NCBI RefSeq assembly: GCF_006210265.1
Contig: NZ_VCNC01000003.1
Location: forward strand, 372,001 to 436,000
DNA length: 64,000 nt
Reading direction: 5' to 3'
From: Desulfovibrio sp. UCD-KL4C
GTDB lineage: Bacteria; Desulfobacterota; Desulfovibrionia; Desulfovibrionales; Desulfovibrionaceae
The position numbers were made by a program, and so were the translations under genes. The notes under the pieces are model-generated. The model was not told the origin of the DNA, searched no databases, and worked only from the letters and a program-made list of their open reading frames with translations. This document shows, one piece after another, positions 6,431 through 64,000 of this stretch; within the stretch, counting starts at the first letter, position 1; each line of letters opens with the position of its first letter.

Positions 6431-6484
6431 ATGCAGTGGAACATTATTTAATCCGTTCCCCGGGTAGTAAATTTCGGAGGCCAG

Positions 6485-7501
6485 ATGGCTCTTAATCTTG
6501 ATGGAATAATAGGTAACAGTGTTACTCTCAAGGATGTTTTTAAAATCCTTGGAAAAGTTGCGCCTACTGACAGCACCGTGCTAGTGACCGGGGAGTCTGG
6601 TACGGGTAAAGAACTTATTGTCAGAGCTCTGCATCATAATAGTAAGCGCAGGGATAAACCTTTTGTTCCTGTCAACTGCGGCGCAATTCCTAGGGAATTG
6701 CTTGAATCAGAGCTCTTTGGGCATGAGAAAGGCGCCTTCACTCACGCAATCCGTTCACGGCCTGGTAGATTTGAACTGGCGGATGGCGGAACAATTTTCC
6801 TTGATGAAATAGGTGAAATGGATCTCAGCCTGCAGGTTAAGATTTTAAGAGTTTTGCAGGAAAAGGAAATTGAACGAGTCGGTGGTACACAGATCAAGAA
6901 AGTTGACGTTAGAATTGTTGCTGCAACTAATAGAGATCTGGAAGCCGAAGTCGCTGCCGGAAGGTTTCGCGAGGATCTTTTTTACCGTTTGAATGTTATT
7001 CCGATGCACCTGCCCCCCTTGCGTGAAAGGGGAGGGGATGTTCTAATTCTGGCTAAGCATTTTCTTTACAGTTTTTGTGCAGAAAAAGATAGATGCACTC
7101 TGAAACTCAATCCGGACACTGCGGATATGTTGGTTTCTTACTCCTGGCCCGGTAATGTCCGTGAGCTGGAAAATTTCATGGAAAGGCTGTCCATCCTCTG
7201 TGATGAGGATGAAGTTACACCCGATGATTTGCCTGAAAAAATATTGAAGGATGTCGGGGCTGAACCTAAAGTTAAGGTTGCGGAACTTGTTCAGCCAATA
7301 GGTTTTTCATGGCCGAATTTAGAGGATATGAACGAGCATAGTACCGATGGTCTTAAAGATTTTCTAGACCGGATTGAAGATAAAATTATTATTGAAGCTT
7401 TGCAAAAAGCAGATGGCGTAAAAAACAAGGCCGCAGAACTTCTTGGAGTTAAACGGACAACCCTCATTGAGAAAATCAAGAAAAGAAATCTGGAAGCGTA
7501 A
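6485..7501 (+). CDS. sigma-54-dependent transcriptional activator (AAA+ and Fis domains, no sensor domain)
   Basis: 338 residues. The protein starts almost directly with the AAA+ domain: Walker A GESGTGKE (residues 36-43), Walker B with IFLDEIGE (about 104-111), sensor and arginine-finger segments ([25 protein letters not shown]). It ends with a Fis-type helix-turn-helix ([20 protein letters not shown]). There is no receiver, GAF or PAS domain, so it is a PspF-like short activator, likely controlled by a partner protein or by expression. The surface loop normally GAFTGA, which touches sigma-54, reads GAFTHA here (residues 83-88). A GGAGG site precedes the ATG. The large TPR gene follows 47 bases later and is a possible operon partner. 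Confidence 0.92.
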
Positions 7502-56522: not shown

Positions 56523-58256
56523 TTATTGAGTTTCTTTAATACCAAGTTGTTTTGTAATAAGAACTTCTGTGTCCACAACCAACGCATCATTTTCACCCAT
56601 CATTCCAAAGCCGAGAATCGGCAGATGGTAAATATTATTTATAGGTAAAGTGAAACCGGTGACAACAGCTTTTTGTTGCCGTAGAACATCGTCGACAAGA
56701 ATTGCGGCACTGTACTGTCCCATTTTTATCAAAATTACCTTTGAAAGTTGCCCTTCAGGTGGCTGCGGAAAATCTAAAACTGTATGCATGCGGATAAGAG
56801 GGTGGACTTTTCCTCTTATAGACACGGTCTCGCGTCCATCCGGTAGTGTTGTGAATTCCTTAGTCTCAGGTTCATATACTTCAAGAACCTCTCTACTTGG
56901 GAATATGAAGGTTTCATTTCCGACTAGGGTTATAAGTGCGTCGACAATGCCTTCATTAACTGAACGACTAAGCGGAATGGCAATCGTAAATGTAGAGCCG
57001 TGTCCAAGCTCGCTTTTGATTGAAACTTTACCGTCCAGCGTATTGTGGATGGAGCTGACGACCGCATCCATTCCTACTCCGCGGCCTGAAATGTTTGTTA
57101 CAGCTTCAGCTGTGGAAAATCCTGATTGTAGAATAAACTCAAAAATTTCTTCTTGCGTATAATTTTTTTCAGGATCGGCAAGGCCGCGTTCTAGGGCTTT
57201 TTGAAGTAGAATTTCAGAGTCCAGTCCTTTTCCGTCGTCAATAATTTCAATGTATGCGAATTCACCTTTTCTGCTTGCGCTAAGCGTAACTGAACCGTCT
57301 TTCTGCTTGCCGCACATTTCGCGATCTTCAGGGGACTCTATTCCATGGTCGAGAGCATTTCTAAGTAAATGAACAAGCGGTTCATTTAGGCATTCGACAA
57401 TGGTTTTATCAAGGGCCAGATCTTCGCCGAGAATCGTAAATTTGATTCGCTTATTGAGTTTTTGTGAAGTGGACTTCACCAGCCTGTGCATGGGCATGAA
57501 AATTTGTTTTAACGGTACAAGTCTTATTTGATCTACTTCGGACTGCAAATTGTGAATAACTTTGTCCAATTCGCTTAGGCTGACAGAAATTTTAGCAATA
57601 CTATCTGTTCCGGTTTGTGCAATAACGGCGTGCGTGACCATTAGTTTGCCGACTAGTTCGATGATAGAATCAAGCTGCTGTGTGGATACTCGAATGGAAG
57701 AAATAGCTTGTGATTTATCTTTTTTAACAGGCGAATCTGGAGTTGTTTTTTCTGATATATCTTCAGTTTTTAAGGTAGACGCGGCTGTAGCATGTTCTGA
57801 CTGATCTTTATCCGCAGGTACATTTGTATCTGTTTCAGTAGTAACTTCAAGTTTATTTTCAATCGTTTTTTCTAGGCTTGGCTCTGTTGGAACTGGGATG
57901 TTAGAGGGATCAGTTTCCAGTTCAATGTTTTCCTGAATTATTTCCGACAATTCTTCAACGGGTTCACTTTTAACACAATCAACAGGGGCAGCACCTTTAT
58001 CTAATAATCCGGCAATGCAGTAAAAGAATTTTTTCTGAGCTTCGGTAATCTCCAGTAGAGTTGTAATCAGGTCCGGCGTTATGGGGGTAATGCCATCTGA
58101 AAGCATATCAAGCAGAGCTATGACCTGCGCAGAAGGCATTTTCACATGCTCAAGCCCAAGAGATTTCATGACATTGTTTATGTCACCTGTCCCTTGCTCT
58201 AAATCTATGATTGTTTTCTGTATATCTTCAATACAGCTTGCAATACTGTCTTTCAT
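56523..58256 (-). CDS. CheA-type histidine kinase without its own HPt domain
   Basis: 577 residues. The N-terminal 90 residues are helical and lack the phosphorylatable histidine motif. An acidic, low-complexity linker follows (about 90-185). Residues 188-250 are the dimerisation domain (RVSTQQLDSIIELVGKLMVTHAVI). The ATPase domain shows the N box HLLRNALDHGIE (296-307), DDGKGLD and GRGVGMD (391-397). The C-terminal CheW-like coupling domain runs to the end. The missing HPt is encoded by the next gene upstream, so this is a split CheA. It is in an operon with an HPt/STAS-like protein and a receiver. Confidence 0.92.
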   Translation of the reverse strand: MKDSIASCIEDIQKTIIDLEQGTGDINNVMKSLGLEHVKMPSAQVIALLDMLSDGITPITPDLITTLLEITEAQKKFFYCIAGLLDKGAAPVDCVKSEPVEELSEIIQENIELETDPSNIPVPTEPSLEKTIENKLEVTTETDTNVPADKDQSEHATAASTLKTEDISEKTTPDSPVKKDKSQAISSIRVSTQQLDSIIELVGKLMVTHAVIAQTGTDSIAKISVSLSELDKVIHNLQSEVDQIRLVPLKQIFMPMHRLVKSTSQKLNKRIKFTILGEDLALDKTIVECLNEPLVHLLRNALDHGIESPEDREMCGKQKDGSVTLSASRKGEFAYIEIIDDGKGLDSEILLQKALERGLADPEKNYTQEEIFEFILQSGFSTAEAVTNISGRGVGMDAVVSSIHNTLDGKVSIKSELGHGSTFTIAIPLSRSVNEGIVDALITLVGNETFIFPSREVLEVYEPETKEFTTLPDGRETVSIRGKVHPLIRMHTVLDFPQPPEGQLSKVILIKMGQYSAAILVDDVLRQQKAVVTGFTLPINNIYHLPILGFGMMGENDALVVDTEVLITKQLGIKETQ

Positions 58257-59005
58257 TATCCGTTTGCTCCGGAGATAGTTTCCGTAAGGAATGTTTCCCG
58301 GTTGTCATATTCAGTGATATATCTGGAAAATCCCCAAGAATAAAATGTTGATGAGCATAAATTATTCATTCCGGTAACACTGATTTCAAGTCTGTCTGAA
58401 AAAGATGCAATAAGTTCAAAAAGAGATGATCCTACAGATAGAGTATTAGTAAAATCAAATAATACTCTGCTGTTGTCGATTATATCATGCAGACTTTGTC
58501 TAACCGTTTCACGTTGTTCGGAAAGATACAACCTATTAACAGATATGGTAATAATTTTATTATCATCAATGGATTCAATTTCTATGGGAGAAAGACCGTT
58601 GTCGGTTGGGCCTAGAACAGCTTTGCCTTCACCTAAAAGCCTTTCTTCGATCTCTGCTGTAAAATCTGTATCGTAAGTTCCGGTATTTCTGAGTTGTTCA
58701 ATAAGAATAAATATGGAGTTCACGGATTCAATAGCAAGGGCTATTTGAGGTAAGTTCCTTCCTATTTCTCCTGACTGCATTTTTTTTAGAAAGCTTTCAA
58801 CTTTATGAGTAAAGGTAGAGGCCGGTTCAAAGCCGGACATAAATCCTGTAACACCTTTTATTGTGTGAAGAGGACGAGAAAGTATTTCTATGCCTTCTTC
58901 AATCTGCTGCTCATCAAGAAGGTCGATACCCTCAAGAACTTGAGGATAGTATTTATCATTAACTTCAGAAAAGAATTCTTCAATTAAAGAATCGTCTTCA
59001 CTCAT
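58256..59005 (-). CDS. HPt domain protein with a STAS-like C-terminus
   Basis: 249 residues. The N-terminal HPt domain has RPLHTIKGVTGFMSGF with the phosphorylatable H47, the signature of CheA P1. The C-terminal half (ITISVNRLYLSEQRETVRQSLHDII, LFDFTNTLSVGSSLFELIASFSD) resembles a STAS domain, which usually acts as an anti-anti-sigma or switch. It probably accepts phosphate from the kinase gene that starts at its last base and passes it to the receiver. The STAS reading is weaker than the HPt. Confidence 0.85.
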   Translation of the reverse strand: MSEDDSLIEEFFSEVNDKYYPQVLEGIDLLDEQQIEEGIEILSRPLHTIKGVTGFMSGFEPASTFTHKVESFLKKMQSGEIGRNLPQIALAIESVNSIFILIEQLRNTGTYDTDFTAEIEERLLGEGKAVLGPTDNGLSPIEIESIDDNKIITISVNRLYLSEQRETVRQSLHDIIDNSRVLFDFTNTLSVGSSLFELIASFSDRLEISVTGMNNLCSSTFYSWGFSRYITEYDNRETFLTETISGANG

Positions 59006-59028
59006 TACCGGCTCCGTTTAAATCTATT

Positions 59029-59430
59029 TTATTTATGCAGCAAACCTAATTTTTCAAGTTCTTCAAAAAGTTTTTCTTTTAAAACCGGTTTTACAAGAAA
59101 AGCCGAAGCTTCAACATCATGAAATGAACGGATGACTGTTTTAGGGTCATTAAGTGCTGTTGTCATGAAAACTTTTGCACACTTTTTGTTTGGAATTGAG
59201 TTCATTTTTTCAAAATCTCGAATTGCTTCAAGAGATGATAGCCCATCCATTTCAGGCATCATTATATCCATGCATACCAGTGTGTAAGGCTTTCCTTCGT
59301 CAAAGGCAATTTTATATGCCTCAAAAGCTTCTTTTCCATTTACTACAATATCTACTTCAAAGAGGGGGGATATAAAAGTGGAGATAAGCTTTCTGCTCAC
59401 AAATTCATCTTCTGCTATAAGAGCTCGCAT
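59029..59430 (-). CDS. CheY-like single-domain response regulator
   Basis: 133 residues. AEDE provides the Mg-binding acids (E7, D8, E9), CMDIMMPEMDG the phospho-acceptor D55, MTTA the switch Thr, and VKP the conserved K114. There is no output domain. It heads the receiver-HPt-kinase operon (23-base gap to the HPt gene), so it is the likely phosphate output. GGAGG precedes the ATG. Confidence 0.93.
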   Translation of the reverse strand: MRALIAEDEFVSRKLISTFISPLFEVDIVVNGKEAFEAYKIAFDEGKPYTLVCMDIMMPEMDGLSSLEAIRDFEKMNSIPNKKCAKVFMTTALNDPKTVIRSFHDVEASAFLVKPVLKEKLFEELEKLGLLHK

Positions 59431-59582
59431 TCATGCCTCCGTTGGTGATAAGTCTCAATTGATATTCTCATAACACGTTTTTTAAATCAATATAATGTCA
59501 ATTAATATTACTCAGCTATAGTTCATATTGCCTTTTCAGGCTTTTCTTGCAAACCTTTGAAAGGTTGAGTACCTAAAACTCC

Positions 59583-60173
59583 ATGGAAAAAAAGAGAACA
59601 CCCCAAAGAGAAGCAAGAATTAGGCAAGTTCTGGAAAAACGCCAGAAAGATCTTACACTTATTGTTGATAATGTGTGGGATCCTCATAATGTTTCAGCTA
59701 TTTTGCGTAGTTGTGACGCTTTCGGTATTTACGGCATCCATTTATACTATACTGACTCAGAGTGGCCTGATTTCGACAACAAATCTTCTGCTTCCGGTAA
59801 AAAATGGGTTGAGCGCACTATGCACTCAGATGCAGCTGAGATGGTCGGATCGCTCCGCAATCAGGGATATCAGGTTTTAAGAACCGGTTTTTCAGAAAAA
59901 GCACGACCTCTCATGGATTTTGACTTAAGCAAACCTTCGGCTGTTATTCTCAGCAATGAACATAGCGGAACTGCTCCTGAACTGTTACAGCTTGTTCCTG
60001 ATGAAGTCTATATTCCTATGCAGGGGATGATACAAAGTTTTAATGTGTCCGTTGCCGCCGGGCTCATTTTGTATCATGGCTTTACGCAGCGATACGCCAA
60101 AGGAATGTATGACACGCCGTCTTTCTCGCAGGAAGAAATGGATGTGATTGTAGAGGACTGGCTGTCCCGCTAA
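59583..60173 (+). CDS. TrmH-like RNA 2'-O-methyltransferase (SpoU family)
   Basis: 196 residues. The SPOUT trefoil signature is visible: VDNVWDPHNVSAILRSCDAFG (motif 1), AVILSNEHSGTAPELL (motif 2) and YIPMQGMIQSFNVSVAAGLILY (motif 3). It closely resembles tRNA Gm18 methyltransferase TrmH in length and in the basic N-terminus. Its end overlaps the convergent GT2 gene by four bases. Confidence 0.88.
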   Translation: MEKKRTPQREARIRQVLEKRQKDLTLIVDNVWDPHNVSAILRSCDAFGIYGIHLYYTDSEWPDFDNKSSASGKKWVERTMHSDAAEMVGSLRNQGYQVLRTGFSEKARPLMDFDLSKPSAVILSNEHSGTAPELLQLVPDEVYIPMQGMIQSFNVSVAAGLILYHGFTQRYAKGMYDTPSFSQEEMDVIVEDWLSR

Positions 60174-61834
60174 AGTTTCTCTGCCAACTCTTTCCATTTT
60201 TTTTCAATATCGGACCAGAGGGATATTAAATCTCTTGAGAAAATATTGTTTATATCTTGCTCTGAAAATTTGCTTTCCAGTTTGATTTTATTTCCGAATA
60301 CTTGAGCCATTCCTTTTATATTGCTGGCCTTTGCAAGGCTTGAATGCTGTATATGGCCTATACTGAGCTGGCCTGCATATATGTGATTGCATCCGCTAAG
60401 GTATGCTCTTAAATCCCGCTCAAGATCATCGAATTGAGTAGGATTAAAACGTACATCAAACGGTCCGCTTTTATTTATAGATTCAAGGTTAAGCATATGA
60501 CAACAGCCGGAAACATGCACAGCCGGGCGGGTGTATGAAAATTGTCCGCAATCAAATGCCGAGCGGCAGTTGTCGAAAACCATTATTCTTTCTGTTAATC
60601 CTTCTATCTGTGAAGTCCCTGCCCCAGGCGGGAAGAGATGATAGTCTGCTGACTGTACACAGGTTGGGGCAGTGGTGGATGTTATTTTGCATCCCACAGC
60701 TCCGGGATCTTCGTATTGTTTTGCTGTAGCAAGCAATTCTTCAAGCCAGTTTTGTGGAAGCTCTACATCGTCATCTAGAAATACAGCCCATTTACCCTTG
60801 CGGACTTCCGGTTCTGCAAGCAGCCAGTTACGGGCCGCCGGAGCTCCGACGTTAACCGGAAGGTGAATAGAGTGATATTGTCCTTTGTCAAAAAGATTTT
60901 CAGCAGTGGTGATTACGTTTCCAGTGCTGTCACTTGATCCGTTGTTGAGTGCAAAGACTTTTGCTCTGCCAATTCTTGAGCTGGCTACATTCTTAAGCGT
61001 ATTCTCGATTAATTTAGCATTGTTCCAAGAGTAAAGCAGGATAGAAACTTCATCAGACGAAGCTAAAATATTTTTTGTCTGAACAGGGTTTAAAAGGCTG
61101 TGTAATTTTTGACCCCAATTTAGATTCCAGATATTTTTTCTCCAGAGTTCGGACAGTATCGCAATTGCTTCTTCCTGTTCGCCAAGTTTTAAGAGTAATT
61201 CACATTTAGTGAACTCTTTCCAACATCCCCAAATTTTTCCGTCCAGTGTGGAAACCGCGTCTAATGCTTCCTGATGGGGTAAGTATAAAAAACTGTACTG
61301 AGCAAATAATCTTTGTTTTACAGGTAGTAACTCGTCATTCCACGGGACAAGATCTAAAGCTGTTTTCGGCAGTTCTGAGTTCCCGAGGCGAAGTAGCATA
61401 TCCCACGAATGTGTTAGCCAAGTTATTCCCTCAGGTCCGCGAAACAAGGGGAATAAATGCTTAATTATAAGCGCCTTATTGTTTGCCTGAAGAAGGGTTT
61501 CTAAATCATCAAGTGGAATATTGTGTTTCGGGCTGTTTGCTAGGAAATCAACAATATTTTTAATCTGTTTCGGAAGGTTGTTTTTATTTATTTCTAAAAG
61601 TTTGCGTGCAGCAAGAATATCAAGGGGGTTTTGTAACCACATCCACATGGCAAGGCTATGGCAGGGGTGCAAAAAAAACGGATTCTTTTCTGAAAGAATT
61701 TTAAATGTATTAATAAGACCGCGTTGATGTGATATTTCTTCTGTGCCGAGTGCCCATAAGGGAACACTTTCTTTTATTTCCAAAAGAAATTTTTTAATAT
61801 CAGAATTAATTAAATTTATACTTTGCTGGGGCAT
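60170..61834 (-). CDS. glycosyltransferase family 2 protein with a helical N-terminal domain
   Basis: 554 residues from ATG 61834 (GGAGA six bases upstream); an ATG at 61846 overlaps the ribosome site. The first 255 residues are helical repeats, possibly TPR-like. The GT-A domain starts at EVSILLYSWNNAKLIENTL and includes the donor-binding DxD region FLDDDVELPQNW. The C-terminal part (GPFDVRFNPTQFDDLERDLRAYLSG) completes a GT2 fold. It could glycosylate a surface polymer or protein. Substrate unknown. Confidence 0.85.
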   Translation of the reverse strand: MPQQSINLINSDIKKFLLEIKESVPLWALGTEEISHQRGLINTFKILSEKNPFFLHPCHSLAMWMWLQNPLDILAARKLLEINKNNLPKQIKNIVDFLANSPKHNIPLDDLETLLQANNKALIIKHLFPLFRGPEGITWLTHSWDMLLRLGNSELPKTALDLVPWNDELLPVKQRLFAQYSFLYLPHQEALDAVSTLDGKIWGCWKEFTKCELLLKLGEQEEAIAILSELWRKNIWNLNWGQKLHSLLNPVQTKNILASSDEVSILLYSWNNAKLIENTLKNVASSRIGRAKVFALNNGSSDSTGNVITTAENLFDKGQYHSIHLPVNVGAPAARNWLLAEPEVRKGKWAVFLDDDVELPQNWLEELLATAKQYEDPGAVGCKITSTTAPTCVQSADYHLFPPGAGTSQIEGLTERIMVFDNCRSAFDCGQFSYTRPAVHVSGCCHMLNLESINKSGPFDVRFNPTQFDDLERDLRAYLSGCNHIYAGQLSIGHIQHSSLAKASNIKGMAQVFGNKIKLESKFSEQDINNIFSRDLISLWSDIEKKWKELAEKL

Positions 61835-61980
61835 CCGACTCTCCATAAATCCGTTTCTTGTTTACAGTATGACTGGTTGATACTTTATTTCTGTCTGTTG
61901 TAAAAGATGTTGGACATACGTTTTAAAACTGGTATGAATAATCGCTTCCTATTCACTATAAATTGAGCGGAGAATTTTCG

Positions 61981-62589
61981 ATGACTGACGTCGATGCTGT
62001 AAAAATAATAAGATCAGGCGGGGTACTTATATATCCTACCGAAACTTTGTTTGCCATAGGGGCGGATGCAAGTGATGAAGTTGCTGCAAATCGTGTTGCT
62101 CTTGTTAAAGGACGGCCTGTTTCTAAGCCGTTACCACTTATTATAGGTAGCATGGAGCAACTCGACCTTGTTACCAAGTTTGCATCTTCTGATGTTCTTA
62201 AACTTGCAGAGTTTTTCTGGCCCGGGCCTCTTTCTATTTTGGTTAAAGGTCGAGATGAATTGCCTTACGCAGTTAAAGATTCAGATGGATATACGTCTGT
62301 GAGATGGACTGATCATCCTGTTGCTGCAAAAATCTGTCTTGCGGCTCGAACTCCGCTTATTGCAACCAGTGCAAATCTTAGCGGTAATAAAGCTGCGGAG
62401 AAAATTGAAGATCTTGATGTAGAGTTAGTGAAGCTGGTCGAGGGGGTCTTTGACGGCAAGCCTGCTCCGCGCGGTGGAAGTCCTTCAACGGTGATTGAAC
62501 CGCTTAGCGGTGGAAAAGTACGAGTCCTCAGGGATGGAGTAATATCCAAAGAATCTTTGATCCAAGCTGGATTTACTGTTGTAGATTAA
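61981..62589 (+). CDS. tsaC: L-threonylcarbamoyladenylate synthase (Sua5/YciO/YrdC family)
   Basis: 202 residues from ATG 61981 (GGAG nine bases upstream; a TTG at 61963 lies before it). It makes threonylcarbamoyl-AMP for t6A37 tRNA modification. GGVLIYPTETLFAIGADAS, KGRPVSKPLPLII, FWPGPLSILVKG, VRWTDHPVA and TSANLSG are the family's binding-site motifs. MtaB, also in this window, acts on t6A. It ends at a strong terminator. Confidence 0.92.
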   Translation: MTDVDAVKIIRSGGVLIYPTETLFAIGADASDEVAANRVALVKGRPVSKPLPLIIGSMEQLDLVTKFASSDVLKLAEFFWPGPLSILVKGRDELPYAVKDSDGYTSVRWTDHPVAAKICLAARTPLIATSANLSGNKAAEKIEDLDVELVKLVEGVFDGKPAPRGGSPSTVIEPLSGGKVRVLRDGVISKESLIQAGFTVVD

Positions 62590-62630
62590 TCACTTTAGAC
62601 TGATTTTACTATTTACCAAGGTTCTTTTTT

Positions 62631-62661
62631 AACCTGCTCTTTGTTTAAGAGCAGGTTTTTT
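62631..62661 (+). terminator. intrinsic terminator after tsaC
   Basis: Perfect 11-bp stem (AACCTGCTCTT / AAGAGCAGGTT) with a five-base loop followed by T's. Confidence 0.93.
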
Positions 62662-62713
62662 AGTAAAAAAAATTAAACTCTAATTGGGATGAATAGTTGT
62701 GATGTGATAGCTC

Positions 62714-62737
62714 AGTATAAAATATTGAACTTTTTGT
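62714..62737 (+). promoter_or_regulatory. conserved upstream element of sRNA unit A
   Basis: 24-base block identical at 21 positions to 63103-63126. Both begin exactly 105 bases before their TGGCAC. The position is right for a bacterial enhancer-binding protein site. Confidence 0.6.
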
Positions 62738-62818
62738 ATGATTTAAGAAAGTTTATTTTTTAAATAAAAATACATTTATTACATGGTGTTATGAGTAAAA
62801 TGTATGTATTTTAAATTT

Positions 62819-62834
62819 TGGCACGCGAGTTGCT
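62819..62834 (+). promoter_or_regulatory. sigma-54 promoter of sRNA unit A
   Basis: TGGCAC-GCGAG-TTGCT: GG (62820-62821) and GC (62832-62833) at the exact 10-base spacing of -24/-12 promoters. The predicted transcription start is near 62845. Confidence 0.88.
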
Positions 62835-62844
62835 ATATTTAAAT

Positions 62845-62914
62845 TACCTTCATTCTTTTGCTGAGATTAAATCGAAAACAGGCCTCGCCGGATACCACCG
62901 GCGGGGCCTTTTCG
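62845..62914 (+). ncRNA. putative sigma-54-dependent small RNA A
   Basis: Predicted RNA of about 70 nt, from the -24/-12 promoter start to a terminator with stem GGCCTCGCCGG / CCGGCGGGGCC (62881-62891 / 62898-62908, one G-U) and TTTT. The first 20 nt are pyrimidine-rich and include CCUUC, complementary to GAAGG-type ribosome sites. A small hairpin (GAT-TAA-ATC, 62865-62873) and UUUU/AAAA flanks lie between. There is no ATG. It is nearly identical to unit B. I do not recognise the family. Confidence 0.72.
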
Positions 62915-63055
62915 ATTTTGTAGTAAAATATAATTTAATTGCGGGATAATTCTGAGTGAAGTTGTCGAGTGGGATTTAAATTTTGAAAAATCAGTTGAGC
63001 ATAAATCTTTAGTGATCAAATTGCGTGTCGCTTTATAATACAGCTTAATCGGTTC

Positions 63056-63121
63056 AAAAAATTTAACTTAGACCCCTTGTTAATGCTGTATAGTTTCGGA
63101 TTAGTATAAAAAATTTAACTT
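63056..63121 (+). repeat. 14-bp direct repeat upstream of sRNA unit B
   Basis: AAAAAATTTAACTT occurs at 63056-63069 and 63108-63121, the second inside the conserved upstream block. This may be a doubled regulator site. Confidence 0.55.
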
Positions 63122-63126
63122 TCTGT
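63103..63126 (+). promoter_or_regulatory. conserved upstream element of sRNA unit B
   Basis: Counterpart of 62714-62737 with three differences, again 105 bases before TGGCAC. Confidence 0.6.
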
Positions 63127-63207
63127 TTATGTAGTAAAGTTTGTTGTTTTTGTATAAAATGCAAATATATTAGTACCTTAAAGTTTTATTTTTATTCTCT
63201 TAGATTT

Positions 63208-63223
63208 TGGCACGCGAGTTGCT
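63208..63223 (+). promoter_or_regulatory. sigma-54 promoter of sRNA unit B
   Basis: TGGCAC-GCGAG-TTGCT, identical to unit A, inside a 50-base block (63204-63253) identical to 62815-62864. The predicted start is near 63234. Confidence 0.88.
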
Positions 63224-63233
63224 ATATTTAAAT

Positions 63234-63304
63234 TACCTTCATTCTTTTGCTGATATAAATATCGAAAACAGGCCTCGTCGGATACCACCGGCGGGGCCTT
63301 TTCG
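63234..63304 (+). ncRNA. putative sigma-54-dependent small RNA B
   Basis: Second copy, about 71 nt. It differs from A only in an 11-12 base central stretch, where the sequence becomes GATA-TAAA-TATC and still forms a hairpin, and in one terminator base (63278 T, making a second G-U). Terminator stem 63271-63281 / 63288-63298, then TTTT. A Nudix gene begins 225 bases later on the same strand. Confidence 0.72.
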
Positions 63305-63528
63305 TTTGAAGCTTATACTCCATCAGGTAAATTCCTACTTAAGCGTTGCTACATATAAGTTCTTAAGCCTGTTTAATAATTTATACCTTAATTCCATTTG
63401 TCTTGTTTTCTTTCTCAAAAATAAATCGTATTATCTTGTCATAAAAAAACATATGCGTTAACAATCATAATGGAGTACTGATTGTAAGTACTCTTATTTT
63501 GTCTACTACATAATAAGGTTGTATTTAG

Positions 63529-64000
63529 ATGATTGGATCTAAACCATGTCCCCATTGCGGCAATGATATTGTCATTTATCGCAATCCAGTTCCCACTGTA
63601 GATATTGTCATTTATGACCCATGTCAGGGGGTTGTATTGATTAAGAGAAATAACCCTCCGCTTGGTTGGGCTTTACCCGGAGGGTTTGTTGATTATGGAG
63701 AAACTCTTGAACATGCAGCTGTACGCGAAGCAAAAGAAGAGACTAATCTTGATGTTGTGCTGACCGGACTTGTCGGAGTTTATTCAGTGCCGTGCCGTGA
63801 TGATAGACAGCATTCAATTAGTATCACTTATAGCGCTGTCGCATGTGATTCACAAATTATTAAAGCCGGTGATGATGCTGGAACCGCATGTTTTTTTCAG
63901 TTGGACGATCTTCCGGATTTAGTCTTTGACCATAGAGATATTTTGCATGATTTTTCGTCTAAAATTCTTTCGTTACAAACTTCGGCCTCGGTAGGGGCTT
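63529..64000 (+). CDS. Nudix hydrolase, truncated at the window end
   Basis: 157 codons are visible and the frame is open at base 64000. An N-terminal CPHCG pair may be half of a zinc ribbon. The Nudix box is [25 protein letters not shown]-x5-E-x7-REAKEE fits, with Asn in place of the usual Gly near the end. Relatives hydrolyse ADP-ribose, NADH or other nucleoside diphosphate derivatives. The start ATG follows a weak AAGG. It may be unrelated to the sRNA pair upstream. Confidence 0.88.

Follow-up and report, generated by a model that had tools for sequence, protein, structure and literature searches.

Two units of the same layout, 389 bp apart, are located close to the end of the window, that is, the whole 64,000-nucleotide stretch of Desulfovibrio sp. 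UCD-KL4C DNA analyzed here. They lie between a Sua5/YciO/YrdC (tsaC-type) gene (61981–62589, plus strand), followed by a terminator-like hairpin detected by the terminator scan (62631–62657), and a Nudix gene (63529–64000, plus strand) that runs off the window; each of these two genes is found close by at 15 of the 16 loci tested in the genus. No tRNA genes are present in the region 58000–64000. The arrangement is evident from direct reading and from a repeat search of the window, in which positions 62811–62870 match 63200–63259 with 95% identity at a spacing of 389 bp. Two units of this layout and distance had been described in an earlier note on this DNA.

Between the two units, the 50 bases at 62815–62864 show no difference, and a 44-base block (62871–62914 and 63261–63304) carries a single substitution. 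Each unit extends in the 5' direction to include two further conserved 16-bp sites, and the unit of copy 1 thus begins at about 62663. The identity between the units is 13/16 and 14/16 in these candidate activator sites, 16/16 in the promoter, 11/11 from −11 to −1, 20/20 from +1 to +20 and 45/50 in the hairpin. Lower values are found between the two sites (12/36), in the stretch separating the second site from the promoter (43/87), farther upstream (49/163) and downstream (14/65). Since the units have diverged outside the conserved elements, they do not resemble each other in the way that recently duplicated sequences do. The near-identity ascribed to the copies in the earlier note applies to the promoter, seed and hairpin, but not to the DNA outside these elements.

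Sigma-54 promoters and candidate activator sites

The putative sigma-54 promoters, TTGGCACGCGAGTTGC in both copies, are located on the plus strand at 62818–62833 and 63207–63222; both were read directly, and that of copy 1 is conserved in relatives. The pattern TGGCAC-N5-TTGCT with GG-N10-GC spacing, present at 62819 and 63208 and situated, as described earlier, inside the 50 identical bases, has no other exact match in the 64 kb. With up to one mismatch allowed, the promoter box is found three times in the window versus 3.9 times in shuffled sequences, which is the level of chance, and the case therefore rests on conservation and not on the box alone. Both units have the −24/−12 promoter with GG-N10-GC that serves as a criterion for sigma-54-dependent small RNA (sRNA) genes. 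An IHF-like element about 40 bp before the promoter is suggestive only: with at most one mismatch to the consensus, such an element occurs anywhere in the 90 bp upstream in 10 of 25 genus copies.

Two predicted activator sites, absent from the earlier note, precede each promoter. They are 16-bp palindrome-like sequences of the form GTWNAA-N4-TTNWAC, located on the plus strand and found by a motif scan: site A (GTAAAAAAAATTAAAC, 62663–62678) and site B (GTATAAAATATTGAAC, 62715–62730) in copy 1, and site A (GTTCAAAAAATTTAAC, 63052–63067) and site B (GTATAAAAAATTTAAC, 63104–63119) in copy 2. Site B of copy 1 also falls within a repeat recovered by the repeat search, and all four are supported by conservation in the genus. 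In both units site B follows site A at exactly 52 bp, or about five helical turns, with the nearer site 104 bp before TGGCAC and the farther one about 155 bp before the promoter box. The window contains six such sequences, four of them at the two units, versus 0.5 in shuffles of the whole window, a control in which local AT-richness is lost.

Paired sites exactly 52 bp apart precede all 36 genus copies examined, and outside the genus there is often a single site per copy. Overall, at least one site, defined by a match at 9 or more of 10 positions within −170 to −70, precedes 107 of 115 copies (the 116 distinct copies minus one with too little upstream sequence) versus 2.4% in shuffles, and the remaining 8 of the 115 have none. 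Since the motif was derived from the upstream DNA of the window and of some relatives, the 49 copies unseen when it was written provide a fair test, and 41 of them carry the site versus 1.8% in shuffles. In 20 regions around copies in other genera, all 16 exact combinations of site and box are sRNA copies. The promoters and conserved sites support the predicted control of these genes by sigma-54 and an enhancer-binding activator, as had been put forward earlier.

A further exact activator-site sequence (GTTTAATAATTTATAC) is located at 63371–63386, after copy 2 and before the Nudix gene. No sigma-54 box is present at the usual distance from it, and it either arose by chance or is what is left of a third copy that has been lost.

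The predicted RNA and its possible mode of action

The predicted sRNAs are 73–74 nt long and extend over 62845–62918 (copy 1) and 63234–63306 (copy 2) on the plus strand, the start of the first being placed by promoter spacing and the onset of conservation. In the relatives, conservation sets in at the expected +1: positions −6 and −5 are variable and are followed by YA[CY]CUUC, with A at +2 in all 116 copies, a count that is partly selected by the queries and is also seen in the genus set collected by BLAST. The 5' seed (UACCUUCAUUCUUUUGCUGA, 62845–62864 on the plus strand in copy 1; 63234–63253 in copy 2) is conserved and predicted to be mostly single-stranded. Folding leaves the first 15 nt mostly unpaired (0.66–0.97), and the mean unpaired value over the first 25 nt of 115 copies is 0.64 versus 0.52 in one shuffle each. 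Across relatives this pyrimidine-rich end is kept as YACCUUC...CUUUUGC, which is anti-Shine-Dalgarno-like and complementary to GAAGGU. In relatives the promoter is likewise kept, and the stretch between seed and hairpin drifts.

The hairpin and T-run previously seen in the 44-base block with one substitution are borne out by folding (z = −7.4 in copy 1 and −5.0 in copy 2) and by the terminator scan, which picks up both hairpins and finds five in the region versus 0.4 expected in shuffles. The terminator of copy 1, including its T-rich tail, is predicted at 62880–62917 on the plus strand, and that of copy 2 at 63270–63306. A strict terminator test is passed by 95 of 116 copies, the 21 failures including one copy cut by a contig end and several hairpins with a poor T-run. 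Pairing in the hairpin is kept, with compensatory changes on both sides at 6 of 12 stem pairs in an alignment of 30 genus copies; this alignment omits the three copies of G002, whose hairpin sequence differs, as well as several other or near-identical ones. No reading frame is conserved, as single-base indels between the copies shift the frame. The combination of an intrinsic terminator about 75 nt downstream with the lack of a conserved frame, a further criterion for sigma-54-dependent sRNA genes, is found in both window copies, and the earlier prediction of RNAs of about 70 nt without an open frame agrees with these results.

In copies of another genus, g40 (L143, L131, and others), a second conserved anti-Shine-Dalgarno-like element, CAGCCUCCUCC, is located between the seed and the terminator; it is absent in the genus of the window.

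The reading that we favor, with a probability of about 0.78, is that each unit represents a free-standing gene for an sRNA of about 74 nt. An enhancer-binding activator would bind the palindrome-like GTWNAA-N4-TTNWAC sites, two per copy in the genus of the window, and open the RNA polymerase held by sigma-54 at the −24/−12 promoter, and the GC-rich hairpin would end transcription. The activator is presumably a response regulator of near-universal occurrence and very probably a member of the DVU3220 family. The exposed 5' end would most likely pair with ribosome-binding regions and repress target mRNAs; such antisense pairing is postulated because other sRNAs act in this way. Sequence and comparison support the layout of the gene, its sites, the way in which conservation is distributed and the spread within Desulfovibrionales.

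A search of eight genus genomes for the 19-mer complementary to the seed, with up to three mismatches, gave 36 matches in all, of which 16 are the sRNA genes themselves; the 20 non-self matches compare with 17 for a reversed-pattern control. Nine of these loci were inspected and no target was named. One match recurs in five genomes and, in the three that were read by eye, lies inside a release-factor-1-like frame; it was rejected as coding conservation.

Several properties of these RNAs would also suit titration of a protein, the role of CrcZ, in place of pairing with mRNA: there are several copies, a pyrimidine-rich single-stranded stretch is exposed, and no target was found. However, the extreme 5' end is the most conserved part, as in seed-pairing sRNAs, and the CrcZ-type AANAANAA motif is present in neither RNA, so that titration appears unlikely. 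That the units encode a short peptide or form an mRNA leader is highly improbable: a TTG-started frame of 84 amino acids overlaps copy 2, but no equivalent frame is listed at copy 1, the copies differ by indels, and a terminator follows within about 75 nt, ahead of any gene. Tandem near-identical copies could also point to a repeat or mobile element of the REP type that merely resembles a promoter–terminator pair. Such an element, however, would hardly be present only twice in a 3.9-Mb genome (E = 0.11 for the next match), be kept beside the tsaC and Nudix genes across the genus, and have separate conserved activator sites, and we give this explanation almost no weight.

Spread in Desulfovibrionales and relation to known systems

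BLAST with the 115-base unit detected matches at E ≤ 0.01 in 28 of 148 genomes, including the window's own and 15 of the 16 congeneric ones; nine of the 28 match in the hairpin alone and were not counted as members on that ground. The sixteenth genus genome was also found by R1, a sequence-only model of the promoter and seed built from 33 sequences, so that all 17 genus genomes searched carry the family. R1 matches 163 of 247 genomes of the bacterial family at E ≤ 0.01, and 93 of 199 genomes of the order at 1e-4, seven of which lie outside the family. In a sample of the phylum it matches 6 of 247 genomes, all six within the family of the window. Searches of more than 40 genomes were run under stricter filters, and weak members are thus undercounted; copies outside the genus were gathered by queries with promoter and seed, and the likeness of these two elements there is partly selected.

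Named genomes were also scanned with a sequence pattern, which yielded 34 loci. By their titles, 28 of these belong to Desulfovibrionales (Desulfovibrio, Nitratidesulfovibrio, Salidesulfovibrio, Desulfovibrionaceae, and Desulfohalobiaceae), and one is titled only Deltaproteobacteria, with a copy that matches a genome of the family. Loci L067, L068, L081, L082, and L094 from gammaproteobacteria, Chitinophagaceae and Bacillus were judged to be chance matches from their hosts and downstream sequences and were not counted later. Locus L194 (G062), which has the promoter without seed, site or hairpin, was kept in the counts as a miss. No match was found in viral contigs. Together, these comparisons support a real family spread across Desulfovibrionales.

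Each of the 14 genus genomes included in the search at E ≤ 1e-4 has two or three copies, as do G003, G008, and G009, and at least five were seen by inspection in G254. In the consensus of 36 units from 16 genomes the sites, promoter, seed and hairpin are conserved, and the sequences between them largely drift. All eight copies in the clade of G000 (the genome of the window), G014, G005, and G006 are most closely related to their positional orthologues, and 25 of the other 28 copies to a paralogue in the same genome. This paralogue-first kinship indicates that the copies were multiplied or homogenized repeatedly.

A Nitratidesulfovibrio-type genome contains an additional sRNA, weaker but alike in layout, with only a poor activator site (L136:9436–9479, minus strand), located between genes for a family-9 glycosyltransferase and a SPOUT methyltransferase. 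It is possibly under another activator.

In Rfam, the window matches no family at the gathering score, and the 13 matches obtained with permissive settings, all below gathering, include none to Qrr, GlmY, CrcZ, or NrsZ. The Qrr sRNAs of Vibrio depend on LuxO and sigma-54, the consensus of the LuxO site being TTGCAW3TGCAA, and GlmY, CrcZ, and NrsZ are sigma-54-driven sRNAs under two-component activators. The family described here resembles Qrr in working principle only, as a probable switch by response regulator and sigma-54 acting on several near-identical sRNAs with terminators, and differs from it in the activator site and in the lack of an Rfam match. No LuxO site of this consensus is present at copy 1, and one with three mismatches occurs at copy 2. 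The luxR/hapR mRNA is among the targets of Qrr, and for the RNAs of the window the seed search named no target. The likeness to GlmY, CrcZ, and NrsZ likewise consists in a sigma-54-driven sRNA with a presumed two-component activator, while the window locus has no Rfam match. A search of Rfam and of relatives, as suggested in the earlier note, gave no Rfam match and, with R1, 93 genomes of the order. The note's view of an undescribed Qrr-like system is upheld insofar as no Rfam match and, in the open-access literature, no description were found. Membership in Qrr is not supported, and sigma-54-dependent non-coding RNAs (ncRNAs) as a class are already known in Desulfovibrio vulgaris.

Four such ncRNAs have been counted in D. 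vulgaris (PMC4641369), located downstream of DVU0679 (Dv_sRNA2), downstream of DVU0653, upstream of DVU2357 and upstream of DVU3282 (PMC3333781; PMC4641369). They share with the family of the window the bacterial order and, as predicted for the latter, a sigma-54 promoter, an enhancer-binding activator and a small non-coding product. Three of the four, however, adjoin activator genes (of the DVU0653, DVU0679, and DVU2359 types), unlike the family of the window in 40 stretches around its copies. Compared by description and neighborhood only, this family may be identical with one of the D. vulgaris ncRNAs, above all with that at DVU3282. DVU3284 is a lactate permease (PMC3333781) and would be expected near the ncRNA at DVU3282; at two Nitratidesulfovibrio-type loci (L135 and L136), no lactate permease is present among the 8 neighbors scanned of 14 predicted.

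A description of the sRNA family of the window was not found in the open-access literature, where accounts of regulatory RNAs from sulfate reducers proved scarce in general, and the passages found of a study of ncRNAs in Oleidesulfovibrio alaskensis contain no sigma-54 sRNA (PMC11124144). Its members occur across the order, and the promoter, the seed and the arrangement of the activator sites are now known in sufficient detail for immediate tests.

The candidate activator

Among the proteins of the window's genome, 26 match PF00158 clearly and two weakly; reduced genomes that keep the sRNA offer a narrower choice. G275 (one contig, 1.4 Mb) encodes RpoN, an sRNA with a 10/10 site and two clear PF00158 activators. 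One of these (L154) is a response regulator with a receiver domain, a GSFTGA motif and a Fis domain, 65% identical to L105 of the window's genome. The other (L161) is a GAFTEA protein with a 93% identical orthologue in G289, for which Pfam shows a weak match to Cache but no Fis domain; no orthologue of L161 is present among the 26 activators of the window's genome, the best of which shows 45% identity over the activation domain. In G269 (1.6 Mb), RpoN and an sRNA with a 10/10 site are accompanied by three activators, and the regulator alone matches one of those of G275. The same regulator is the sole activator common to G275, G269 and the genome of the window. Because the reduced genomes G275 and G269 share one sigma-54 activator, we infer that a DVU3220-like response regulator drives the sRNA.

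L105 is encoded at G000:C7:49601–50971, after a histidine kinase gene and with a glutamine synthetase gene 1.2 kb on. DVU3220 is listed with GSFTGA, and according to the same study no motif was predicted for it (PMC4641369); it has been reported to bind an ammonium-transporter operon (PMC3333781). Since both the gene context and GSFTGA fit these descriptions, L105 very probably belongs to the DVU3220 family, an assignment made from descriptions rather than from the sequence of DVU3220. GSFTGA is not specific to L105 and is also present in L107, L116, and L118.

Two reduced symbionts of Trichonympha, acquired independently, have been described: Rs-N31, with a complete genome of 1.4 Mb, and ZnDsv-02, with 1.6 Mb in 43 contigs (99.2% complete). 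Both are reported to lack ammonium transporters, and many of their response-regulator genes have been lost or disrupted (PMC7608387). In size, G275 and G269 fit these two genomes. If they are indeed those symbionts, the only published target of the regulator has gone there, and the sRNA and its site remain. DVU3220 has so far been taken as a nitrogen regulator lacking a known binding motif. It is conceivable, though we hold it only tentatively, that for the DVU3220 family, the best conserved among the sigma-54 response regulators in Desulfovibrionales, the sRNA is the core, ancestral output, and that reduced symbionts keep sigma-54, the regulator and the sRNA after the loss of ammonium transporters and many response regulators for the sake of an indispensable post-transcriptional role. 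A true link to the regulator would explain why reduced termite-gut symbionts retain sigma-54 and this protein. The sRNA family points to a conserved control circuit, and would provide a candidate binding motif and main output for a near-universal regulator with no motif predicted so far (PMC4641369).

Alternatively, the sRNA family may be real but driven by another activator, possibly by lineage-specific ones, and this has a considerable, if somewhat less than even, chance of being correct. The 26 clear activators in the genome of the window leave room for it, and G289 (98% complete, 70 contigs) keeps the sRNA and the site without the regulator, its only clear activator being the GAFTEA protein. 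The regulator is matched at E ≤ 1e-130 in 233 of 247 genomes of the family and in 186 of 188 good ones, and, being near-universal, it adds little by its co-occurrence with the sRNA. The two exceptions among the good genomes are G289 and G171, both of which have R1 matches (2.8e-4 in G171). In the genome of the window, no activator site was found near the regulator gene itself or at two ammonium-transporter loci, where sigma-54-like boxes occur, and no exact site is present in the loci of its 28 PF00158 matches or in the other activator loci scanned. Against another activator, a Fis domain is present in just one of the activators of G275, and the same site in G275, G269 and the genus of the window suggests one conserved activator.

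An activator gene adjoining the sRNA was also considered and rejected. No activator motif was detected in 20 regions of 15–19 kb in other genera by a scan that is incomplete, a like pattern missing 4 of the 26 activators of the window's genome, and no tblastn match (E ≤ 1e-15) was obtained with these 26 activators against the 40 stretches around copies.

Among other sigma-54 activators, L155 and L161 of two reduced genomes have a membrane-like N-terminus and an activation domain with GAFTEA, and L155 matches Cache weakly and lacks a Fis domain. The window itself encodes, at 6452–7498, a sigma-54 activator of 349 amino acids with GAFTHA and a Fis domain and with no receiver domain in Pfam. GAFTHA is listed for DVU2894, a flagellar regulator similar to FlrA/FleQ (PMC4641369). 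Proteins similar to the activator at 6452–7498 are present in other genera (L151, L153, L176, and L177).
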